Shown here piece by piece: positions 3,197 through 6,001 of a stretch of DNA of 8,115 bases. A model generated the notes under the pieces. It saw only the letters and a list, made by a program, of their open reading frames with translations. It was not told the DNA's origin and searched no databases. Within the stretch, counting starts at the first letter, position 1, and every line of letters starts with the position of its first letter. This DNA comes from Emcibacter sp. (GTDB lineage Bacteria; Pseudomonadota; Alphaproteobacteria; Sphingomonadales; Emcibacteraceae), in NCBI GenBank assembly GCA_023142175.1, contig JAGLJX010000165.1:1-8115 (forward strand), given 5' to 3'. Position numbers and translations under genes: made by a program.

Positions 3197-6001
3197 TTAT
3201 CCAATAGCCCCGATATGCGCCGAAACTGCCTGTGAAATTTTTCTTATCTGATTATAGATTATTTCGATCTCATCAAATATCTGCTTATTTTCATACTTAT
3301 AACCGTGGGTATCATCGCTGGAGAAACTTATCGCTTCCGGATTATCCAGGTCAATTTCATAATCACCTTCCAGTGGAAAAATTTCACGCAGTAACAACAG
3401 TGTTGGCGAAATTTGAAACCGCAAAATCCGCAGAATAAGGTCATCAACACTCAGCCCTTTATGATCACGGAACCGTGGAATTCGTGTAATCAGCAGGAAA
3501 ATCCGCTGAATCAGAGCCATGCGCACCACATGAAGCAGGATATAATTGCTGCGTTCTTCTGCGCTGAGGCTATAAGGCGCGGCTTCAACTTCTCGCGTTT
3601 TCATACTGTCTTTGAGATACATTAAGTCCTGCCGCAGGGTAAACTCAACACGGTTTAATCCCTCAAATACGCCATGTTTTTTCAACATCTTGGCAAGTCT
3701 TAGCATGCGGTCGTGGTCGTGGCTTTCGTCCTCATAGCTGGCCGAATGCATCCAGTAGCGGGGCCGGAATAATGACGTATAAGCTCCAAGAAAATCTTCT
3801 TCTGTCACATCAACCGCCGCAATGACCAATTTCATAATATGGCGCAGGCGGGTCGAGCTATCATACATTTTCCAGAAACCATAACCATCTTGCGCTATGG
3901 CCGTCCCTACGCCACCTAAACTATTGGCAAAATAGCCCAGTTGATGCAGGAGCATATTATTGGGAATAGCCCTGATTTGGGATAGTTTTTCCAATGGACG
4001 GCTCACCACGCCTTCGTCCTGACGAAGTGTCATGCGAGAACCGGACGGGTAAGAAATATCCGTACCCAGAATGGAGATCAACTTCATAAAGTCCGAGCCC
4101 TCAGCAACCGCGCTGTTATAGGTCTTGACGGTGATGAAAAAATCCAGTGACCAATCAATATTCTTATAAAATGGGTCCGGTGTCTCGTCCACCGGCGACA
4201 ATAGGTTTTCCATAACCCGACTTAGGGTAGCAAAGGCAAGGTCTGGCGTATGCAGCCACAGATAACCGTCTCCGCCCTGCAAGCTGAACTCCTGTTTATA
4301 GGCTATATTATGTTTTTTCACCAAGCGGCGGGCTTCCGGCGTATGCATATAATCAAGCCGACCACCAAAGCCATCCGGATGCGCCCCGCGCCCGACACTT
4401 TCCCCGCCCGTGTCAAAAATCACCAGTTCCACATCACTCAGATCAAATTTGCGCCATAGTTTGGCAACCTTTATCCGCAGACGTTCAATGGCGAGACCCG
4501 CCGCAACCTGTCCCAGATAGCGGCCCGCATCGGAATATCCCGCCTGTATGCATAACCGCCCCCGTTTTTTGACATAGGCAAAATAATGGGGATTTTCCAG
4601 CAATTCCTCAATTACCTCTGCGCCGCGCACCAAGGCCTGATCGGTCTCGAACAGGGGCGAGATATCAACATTATCCTCCACCCCGAACAACTTGGCATAG
4701 CATAATGCCGCCAGCACCGTAAACGGCGTATCAGATTCCGCTATCAGGAACCGTATGGGGGTGTTTGGGTCAATATATTTAAGGAACTGAGCCACGATCA
4801 TAAACAACCTTTTGGCTGTGGTCTGCTCATGCAGAATCGTCTCATAACCGATGGTTTCGGACGATATATGATCGAGTAATTTGCTGGCCGCTGTCATATA
4901 ACGCCGACGACTTGTGGCATCATCGGGGTCTTTTTCCATCGCAACCATTGGCCGGATCGCATTATGCAGCTGCACCGCATTCAGGCGAAAATGCACATGA
5001 GAGAAGCCGGAACGGAAATTAGCAAAAATAGCCCGAAAGATAATCAGTTCACTAACATCATCATCTTTGGCATTGGTGATCAGTTGATCTAACTCATCCA
5101 AAATCTGGGAAGGTATATCAGCCCTGCTATTAGCCATGTGGCGGGCAAGTTTCCGTACTGCTGGCACATCATGAGCATCATCGGGGATATGGTTGAGGTC
5201 ACTGGCAAACATATCTTTAAGCTGTTGTAGCAAATCATGAACTTTACCTTCACTCTGCCAGCGCGACAGATAAACCTCACATTGGCGGTGGGCCATAAGG
5301 ATACGGTATTTGACGCTATCCATCCATGTGATATCGTCGCGCCCGTCCACATCAAAGCCAACCCAGCTGGCCGTTGTGACCAGCTTTAAATCAAGCGACT
5401 TCCAGTCTTCAGGATAGACCGTACGCGCAACATTAAGCGCCACTTCATACAGACTTGCTATGGCCTGTTGCAGATTAAGCAAAGCCTTTTCCGACTGTTC
5501 AAATTCATAATTAAGGGTCAGTCCATCATCAGGGCGGCCCTTACAGGTTTTGATCTTTATCGCGGCCTGTTTTTCGGTCATGGAGCCATCAATCAGACCG
5601 GCCAATATATCATACTGCGAGCGGCTAAAGCCGAAAGTAGGATGACCTGTTATGACAATACCCACCAGTTCGCGCTGTATTATTTCCTGAAATTCGGCGA
5701 AAGACTTGCCCTTGCATATTAGCAGGAAGCAATCGCCAAGACGTTTCTTATTTTTCTGGCGATCCGTTTCCTTCAAATAGGTCCGCGCCCGCCTGCCCCG
5801 GCTTAAAAAACCCTGAGCAGAAAGCTCCTCCACAATATTATCAATATCTTCAGATGGCATCTGCCCCTTTTTCATCTGTTTCAACAGATGGTATGACATC
5901 TGCTGATAGGGGTTAACCAGCGGTGTTTCTTCCGACAGAAGACGACATTTTTCCAACTCGCTTGATAGCTCAGCTAAAAGCGTTGAGGATTGATCAGACA
6001 T
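3197..6001 (-). CDS. divergent phosphoenolpyruvate carboxylase homologue with altered active site
   Basis: This 934-residue protein is a PEPC family member; the normal enzyme makes oxaloacetate from PEP and bicarbonate (E. coli Ppc has 883 residues). The signature blocks appear in the right order but altered: VITGHPTF (116-123; usual TAHPTE), ASWVGFDVDGRDD (211-223; usual GSWMGGDRDGNP), FRLNAVQ with R339, PLFET (449-453), GYSDAGR (488-494; usual GYSDSxKD), FDTGGESVGRGAHP (529-542; usual FHGRGGxxGRGGxP), LQGGDGY (574-580; usual EQGE), SGSRMTLR (653-660; usual GSRPxKR) and RAIP (677-680). The likely metal ligands E452 and D491 and arginines 339, 538, 656 and 677 are kept. The usual H579, R581, K546 and K773 (E. 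coli numbering, recalled) appear as D530, G532, R494 and A729, and the C-terminal NTG reads AIG. The frame is intact with no decay. The ribosome site is weak, only GG(T)AA about ten bases before the ATG. Fold assignment is firm; PEPC activity is doubtful. Confidence 0.85.
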   Translation of the reverse strand: MSDQSSTLLAELSSELEKCRLLSEETPLVNPYQQMSYHLLKQMKKGQMPSEDIDNIVEELSAQGFLSRGRRARTYLKETDRQKNKKRLGDCFLLICKGKSFAEFQEIIQRELVGIVITGHPTFGFSRSQYDILAGLIDGSMTEKQAAIKIKTCKGRPDDGLTLNYEFEQSEKALLNLQQAIASLYEVALNVARTVYPEDWKSLDLKLVTTASWVGFDVDGRDDITWMDSVKYRILMAHRQCEVYLSRWQSEGKVHDLLQQLKDMFASDLNHIPDDAHDVPAVRKLARHMANSRADIPSQILDELDQLITNAKDDDVSELIIFRAIFANFRSGFSHVHFRLNAVQLHNAIRPMVAMEKDPDDATSRRRYMTAASKLLDHISSETIGYETILHEQTTAKRLFMIVAQFLKYIDPNTPIRFLIAESDTPFTVLAALCYAKLFGVEDNVDISPLFETDQALVRGAEVIEELLENPHYFAYVKKRGRLCIQAGYSDAGRYLGQVAAGLAIERLRIKVAKLWRKFDLSDVELVIFDTGGESVGRGAHPDGFGGRLDYMHTPEARRLVKKHNIAYKQEFSLQGGDGYLWLHTPDLAFATLSRVMENLLSPVDETPDPFYKNIDWSLDFFITVKTYNSAVAEGSDFMKLISILGTDISYPSGSRMTLRQDEGVVSRPLEKLSQIRAIPNNMLLHQLGYFANSLGGVGTAIAQDGYGFWKMYDSSTRLRHIMKLVIAAVDVTEEDFLGAYTSLFRPRYWMHSASYEDESHDHDRMLRLAKMLKKHGVFEGLNRVEFTLRQDLMYLKDSMKTREVEAAPYSLSAEERSNYILLHVVRMALIQRIFLLITRIPRFRDHKGLSVDDLILRILRFQISPTLLLLREIFPLEGDYEIDLDNPEAISFSSDDTHGYKYENKQIFDEIEIIYNQIRKISQAVSAHIGAIG

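Follow-up and report, generated by a model that had tools for sequence, protein, structure and literature searches.

We analysed an 8,115-nucleotide stretch of an Emcibacter sp. genome (contig JAGLJX010000165.1, hereafter the window), which carries a gene for a 934-residue protein related to phosphoenolpyruvate carboxylase (PEPC). We found that this gene is a member of a large, well-conserved PEPC branch with a partly rebuilt active site, referred to below as the rewired family. Judging from sequence comparisons, the rewired protein is probably an anaplerotic PEPC, which converts phosphoenolpyruvate (PEP) and bicarbonate to oxaloacetate and phosphate. The oxaloacetate would refill the tricarboxylic acid cycle when sugars are burnt via the Entner-Doudoroff pathway. 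A preliminary description of the window had regarded the protein as a metal-binding PEPC homologue that probably does not carboxylate PEP; overall, its interpretation was partly supported.

Translation gave an intact reading frame with an ATG start, as had been described, and the motifs HPTF, YSDAGRY, FDTGGESVGRGAHP, LQGG and a C-terminal AIG were all present. The Pfam PEPcase model (PF00311) aligned only with residues 400–542, with 51 bits (E 8e-14; gathering score 22.4 bits), and Pfam found no domain beyond PEPcase in the protein. The equivalog model of canonical PEPC (NF000584 of NCBIfam) gave 60.3 bits, below its cut-off of 815. A sequence search of solved structures returned five distinct sequences, all of them PEPCs (best E 3e-7), and the AlphaFold2 (AF2) model of the window protein (pLDDT 91.9, pTM 0.92) had the PEPC fold over the full chain.

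Residues were counted in 199 non-redundant members of the rewired family, obtained from 406 atypical sequences by removing one under 880 amino acids (aa) and then redundant ones, and compared with 46 canonical rows (E. coli and 45 others). Polar residues invariant in both groups were R73, H138, E201, W248, D252, D254, R396, E506, D543, R587, Q613, R699, R703, R713 and Q723 (E. coli numbering). Among these, the metal ligands E506 and D543, the catalytic H138 and the phosphate/carboxyphosphate arginines R396, R587, R699 and R713 were found in 199 of 199 rewired members. As the preliminary description had proposed, H120, R339, E452, D491, R538, R656 and R677 of the window protein align with H138, R396, E506, D543, R587, R699 and R713, and both the model and this conservation bear out its view that fold, metal ligands and phosphate-binding arginines are intact. 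Roles of single residues follow work on the E. coli and maize enzymes; in E. coli PEPC, the counterparts of arginines R339, R538, R656, R660 and R677 hold the PEP phosphate and carboxyphosphate. According to alignment and model, the protein retains the metal pair E452/D491, the catalytic H120 and these five arginines on a PEPC fold.

Other canonical invariants were switched in all 199 members (E141F, N256R, D394H, K546R and G580T), and near-fixed switches were G583E (198 members), G590H (197), E615G (197) and R725G (198). H579 was replaced by D in 141 members, by N in 56 and by E in 2, and R581 by H in 179 and by G in 20 (among them the group of the window protein); the signature loop FHGRGGxxGRGG with H579 and R581 was found in none of the 199. 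R253, present in 46/46 canonical rows, was mostly L, M or V, and an invariant arginine (R221, at N256) was gained three residues past it in 199/199 members. The canonical D394/H579 pair corresponds to H337/D530 in the window protein, with N or E at position 530 in some members. The absence of H579, R581 and K546 counterparts was therefore correctly described, and the pattern is not peculiar to the window protein but fixed across the 199 members. In contrast, the claim that R294 was lost at V218 did not hold, as the E. coli sequence used has Glu at position 294 and it is R253 that aligns with V218. On this sequence evidence, the PEP-phosphate and metal side is kept and the other side is rebuilt as a set. 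The bicarbonate and closing-loop side would have been rebuilt with R221, H337, R494, E534 and H541 in place of R253/N256, D394, K546, G583 and G590, with H579 giving way to D/N/E and R581 to H/G on the same side.

Such a pattern might also be read in other ways. Identity to E. coli PEPC is 17% overall, which permits local register errors, and the R253/N256 and K546R changes resemble positional swaps, as would be expected of an ordinary PEPC whose missing residues are all present but shifted in a poor alignment. This explanation is very improbable, since the substitutions are fixed across 199 relatives and the H579-G590 loop is ungapped between F578 (197/199) and R587 (199/199); because of this ungapped loop, H579D and R581G/H are real. 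The refuting condition set in the preliminary description, that neighbours supply missing residues, was borne out in part, as charge is regained nearby for R253 (lost, with N256R gained) and K546 (K546R). Loss of catalytic signature residues would also fit the product of a decaying pseudogene, a scarcely credible explanation that was rejected on account of the core conservation in 199/199 members, in agreement with the preliminary description; besides, the frame is intact and hundreds of relatives are among the matches listed. Because E141F, N256R, D394H, K546R and G580T are fixed in 199/199, chance or decay is excluded. Finally, the fixed changes are concentrated in the closing loop and on the side of K546 and R253, and the PEP-phosphate side is spared. 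This would suit another PEP-dependent enzyme on the PEPC scaffold, one that passes phosphate or enolate to a different acceptor or does no more than hydrolyse PEP. We consider this unlikely, in view of the distribution and neighbours described below.

The order sample comprised 99 genomes of the order holding Emcibacter. PF00311 matches were found in 66 of them, 14 at >900 bits (canonical) and 52 at about 40–70 bits (rewired type), and 28 of the latter were read and compared by BLAST. Full-length pyruvate carboxylase (PYC) was present in 14/99 (PF02436 matched 19 genomes, of which five with partial matches were not counted). No genome in the order sample had two of the three types and 19 had none, with partial PF02436 matches uncounted. 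In the class sample of 385 genomes, 56 had the rewired type, 38 canonical PEPC and 60 PYC, and eight had divergent others set apart by match pattern. Here PF02436 matched 81 genomes. The 60 with >180 bits were counted, although in two of them the frames were short, and the 21 with weaker matches were left uncounted; two of these 21 (G029 and G035) hold the rewired type. Overlaps in the class, tested by Fisher tests that ignore kinship, were 1 versus 8.7 expected for rewired/PYC (p 0.001), 1 versus 5.5 for rewired/canonical (p 0.03) and 3 versus 5.9 for canonical/PYC (p 0.24). The rewired type tends to occur where ordinary carbon-replenishing enzymes are missing. Isocitrate lyase family matches were found in 54/99 order genomes, and none in 18 of the 52 rewired-type genomes, including all eight Emcibacter-type genomes sampled.

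Because the Fisher tests ignore kinship, an RpoB tree was made of chosen order genomes. Thirty were selected (10/14 canonical, 8/14 PYC and 12/52 rewired), and three were left out (G009 had no match; G057 and G033 gave fragments), leaving 27. The three states together needed five changes on this tree, and the rewired type alone also needed five, four of them forced by starred branches. For example, three rewired genomes were sister to two canonical holders (97/95), and G002 stood beside three PYC holders (100/98). Such repeated switching with partner loss is the behaviour of functional equivalents. PYC differs from the rewired protein in being an unrelated biotin enzyme acting on pyruvate, yet it alternates with the rewired gene in the tree and seems to have the same anaplerotic role. 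The common product of the alternating types is oxaloacetate, which argues against another PEP-dependent enzyme. A second PEPC, which the preliminary description had proposed to look for, was found in none of 10 near relatives (all draft genomes). This absence, together with charges replaced nearby, makes us lean against the earlier suggestion of a non-carboxylating protein.

Gene context was surveyed at 47 rewired loci of 8.5–23 kb each (L082, canonical, and L099 and L100, non-family, were excluded), with Entner-Doudoroff queries taken from two rewired loci, L108 and L111. At least two of zwf, pgl, edd and eda were present at 11/47 loci in varied orders, such as pgl-edd-glk-eda-ppc, zwf-edd-glk-ppc, ppc-zwf-pgl-edd-eda, ppc beside LacI and glk-zwf-pgl-edd-eda, and others. 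In nine representatives, the NCBIfam edd, zwf, glk, pgl and eda models passed their cut-offs. Not one of the 14 canonical PEPC loci from the order sample carried two of these genes, and a single locus gave a weak eda-like match (29% identity). A LacI-type regulator family occurred in 9 of the rewired loci compared. Among plasmid copies, that of Sphingobium lies near an annotated dehydrogenase and enolase, with a frame between them read as FAH-type, and that of Phyllobacterium follows annotated sucC and sucD near oxalate genes; the beta subunit of the latter scored 570 bits with the succinate-CoA ligase model (cut-off 370) and 502 with malate-CoA ligase, below the cut-off of 604. In the Methylobacterium plasmid record, the region around the rewired copy carries no annotation. 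The glycolytic and CoA-ligase neighbours fit conversion of PEP to a C4 acid, a further point against another enzyme on the scaffold. The nearby LacI-type regulators and Entner-Doudoroff genes, together with several changed catalytic positions, could instead suggest a regulator of sugar catabolism that senses PEP and has lost catalysis; a PEP-sensing regulator had been raised in the preliminary description. However, metal and phosphate ligands and the catalytic His, all unneeded by a sensor, are kept in 199/199 members, Pfam finds no further domain, and alternation with PYC or PEPC would be left unexplained; the regulator idea is thus not supported and seems quite improbable. The near-exclusion with canonical PEPC and PYC and the Entner-Doudoroff context favour a working anaplerotic enzyme and counter the earlier view that PEP is probably not carboxylated.

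Several observations weigh against an anaplerotic PEPC. H579, R581 and K546 are each present in 46/46 canonical rows and all are changed in the rewired family; His138, His579 and Arg587 matter for E. coli PEPC activity according to PMC11832675 (which cites Terada 1991 for H579). Entner-Doudoroff linkage was found at 10/20 further order loci, 1/10 Emcibacter-type loci and 0/17 elsewhere. No such link was found at the window, where the neighbours are alkaline phosphatase and phosphomannomutase, and the Burkholderia plasmid copy has other neighbours, lying between an RraA-family gene and D-glycerate dehydrogenase. The rewired type was assigned by score and span only in 24/52 order and 36/56 class genomes. 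Five rewired-type genomes (G029, G035, G040, G063 and G067) carry partial PF02436 matches of 71–90 bits on frames of 492–563 aa, which could be carboxylase or decarboxylase subunits; exclusion is weaker if they are two-part carboxylases. It is broken outright by G355 (rewired type and PYC) and G381 (rewired type and canonical PEPC). The canonical PEPC of G381 has K773M and N881A, like the serine-cycle type, and may serve another pathway, possibly as a serine-cycle enzyme. Flanks of the rewired locus of this genome (L081; L082 is the canonical one) resemble the Methylobacterium bullatum plasmid L122, and the genome is probably Methylobacterium. ATP-dependent PEP carboxykinase, which could run in reverse, matched in 81/99 order genomes, one of these matches (G002) being a 28-bit fragment. 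Besides, 228/385 class genomes had neither rewired, canonical or divergent types nor full-length PYC, so absence of one type is no proof that another is needed.

Compared with bacterial and plant PEPCs such as E. coli Ppc and maize C4 PEPC, the rewired family forms a separate clade, is changed family-wide at H579, R581, K546, R253, E141, D394, E615 and R725, and mostly lacks K773 and N881. In the window protein, whose C-terminal register is loose, neither of these inhibitor residues was found. The lack of Lys at the K773 position had been described correctly, but its counterpart was V732 in both alignments and not A729. Loss of K773 and N881 would make the enzyme insensitive to aspartate/malate feedback. 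It concerns the feedback-inhibitor site and not catalysis; in the serine-cycle "non-regulated" PEPC these positions are occupied by L and A, as PMC3615186 describes. That source reports the replacement in Ppc1 of Methylosinus trichosporium OB3b, which shares 33% identity with Ppc2, the ordinary PEPC of that genome, and reads it as aspartate/malate insensitivity. Since the Phyllobacterium plasmid has CoA-ligase genes beside the rewired gene, serine-cycle identity was considered. It was rejected because Ppc1 keeps the PEP-site residues, unlike the rewired protein, and has another C-terminal spacing (107 residues for L805-A912, like 108 in E. coli, versus about 200 from the K773 position to the C-terminus in the rewired protein). 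Archaeal-type PEPC (PF14010, 3odm) is related by fold comparison and about half the length of the rewired protein.

Three protein searches, each scoring about 8000 candidates, gave 1671, 1245 and 1199 matches at E <= 1e-3; the 120 best per search were listed, and the tails may include canonical PEPC. Relatives from the first search (best 120 of 1671, own entry aside) were 37–86% identical to the window protein. Among the matches listed, most source-named ones were labelled phosphoenolpyruvate carboxylase and some hypothetical protein, and named holders included Paremcibacter, Emcibacter, Kordiimonas, Kiloniella, Niveispirillum, Nitrospirillum, Azospirillum, Inquilinus, Novosphingobium, Pacificimonas, Labrys and Prosthecomicrobium. 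In a 41-row tree, the 25 rows of the rewired family and the 13 of canonical PEPC each formed one clade (100/99). Their branches measured 1.97 and 2.55 changes per column, respectively, and long branches meet in this tree. As far as this tree indicates, the rewired family is a distinct, monophyletic PEPC class. No paper setting such a subgroup apart was found in the open-access literature. The PEPC database label already exists, and the class itself folds as PEPC and probably works like PEPC. RC1_2446 of Rhodospirillum centenum is called PEPC in PMC2890560. Rewired copies were also seen on large replicons (L121–L124) of Burkholderia pyrrocinia, Methylobacterium bullatum, Sphingobium sp. TomTYG74 and Phyllobacterium zundukense; they were found by tblastn, and megablast on plasmids gave no match. 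These copies reflect horizontal spread, which extends beyond Alphaproteobacteria.

Three set-apart rows (L099, L100) were unsurely placed in the 41-row tree. L100 (G481) has two tandem genes at 7083-13981, of about 1109 and 1158 aa, from another divergent PEPC-like group. This pair keeps E506, D543 and H138, shares Q538, R546 and QGG with the rewired family, and has E579-G580-G581 without H590. By match pattern only, G111, G210, G406, G244, G270 and G146, all of them small genomes (1.4–2.1 Mb), may hold similar genes. L099 (G402) encodes at 7390-10362 an outlier PEPC-like protein with H579, R581 and K546 kept, but I141, R256 and E394.

Table. Features of the window and of the rewired PEPC-like gene (counts refer to rewired members unless canonical is stated).
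Feature	Position	Strand	Basis
Rewired PEPC-like gene	3197..6001	-	ORF, 934 aa, ATG start
H120 for catalytic H138, in HPTF; F123 for E141	5642..5644	-	His 199/199, Phe 199/199
V218-R221: R253 lost, N256R gained	5339..5350	-	R253 46/46 canonical; R221 199/199
H337-x-R339: His for D394, R396 kept	4985..4993	-	H 199/199, R 199/199
E452, metal ligand E506	4646..4648	-	199/199
YSDAGRY: metal ligand D491 (D543) kept, invariant Arg 494 for K546	4517..4537	-	Alignment
Loop FDTGGESVGRGAHP: D for H579, G for R581, E for G583, His 541 for G/A590; R587 kept (R538)	4376..4417	-	Alignment
QGG for canonical QGE (E615G)	4271..4279	-	G 197/199
GSR...R...RAIP: R656, R660, R677 for R699, R703, R713	3971..4042	-	199/199 each
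C-terminal GAIG for canonical RNTG; inhibitor-site N881 lost, terminal Gly kept	3200..3211	-	Terminal G 198/199
Alkaline phosphatase, upstream gene, 513 aa, 16-base gap	6018..7559	-	Pfam
Phosphomannomutase/phosphoglucomutase, downstream gene, 457 aa, 14-base gap	1809..3182	-	Pfam, NCBIfam

The gene order phosphatase, PEPC-like gene, mutase, guanine deaminase and GntR regulator was kept in L003. The alkaline phosphatase of the window has an N-terminus read as lipoprotein-like; in L004 the phosphatase was more diverged (45%) and further away. A 148-aa frame at 7667-8113, cut at the window edge, has a Lys/Arg-rich C-terminus and no match in Pfam or NCBIfam; its counterparts in L001 and L002 are 76 and 85%, and both loci keep this frame with the phosphatase and the PEPC-like gene. 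The remaining six Emcibacter-type loci, some of them short, did not show the phosphatase/PEPC-like arrangement.

PEPC holds a central place among CO2-fixing enzymes, and its catalytic residues have been treated as fixed; a large PEPC-annotated family has changed several of them together and retained the others. A bolder proposal, which is tentative and against which the odds lie somewhat, is that the family represents a third natural PEP carboxylation, in which the PEP/metal half is kept and bicarbonate is activated (or CO2 itself is taken) by R221, H337, R494, E534, H541 and D/N530; it would be unregulated by C4 acids and repeatedly exchanged with canonical PEPC and PYC across Alphaproteobacteria. 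If PEP is not carboxylated, many database entries carry a wrong label, and the anaplerosis of many Alphaproteobacteria lacks an explanation. If it is, the roles given to H579, R581 and K546 have to be revised, and metabolic engineering would gain a feedback-insensitive PEPC.
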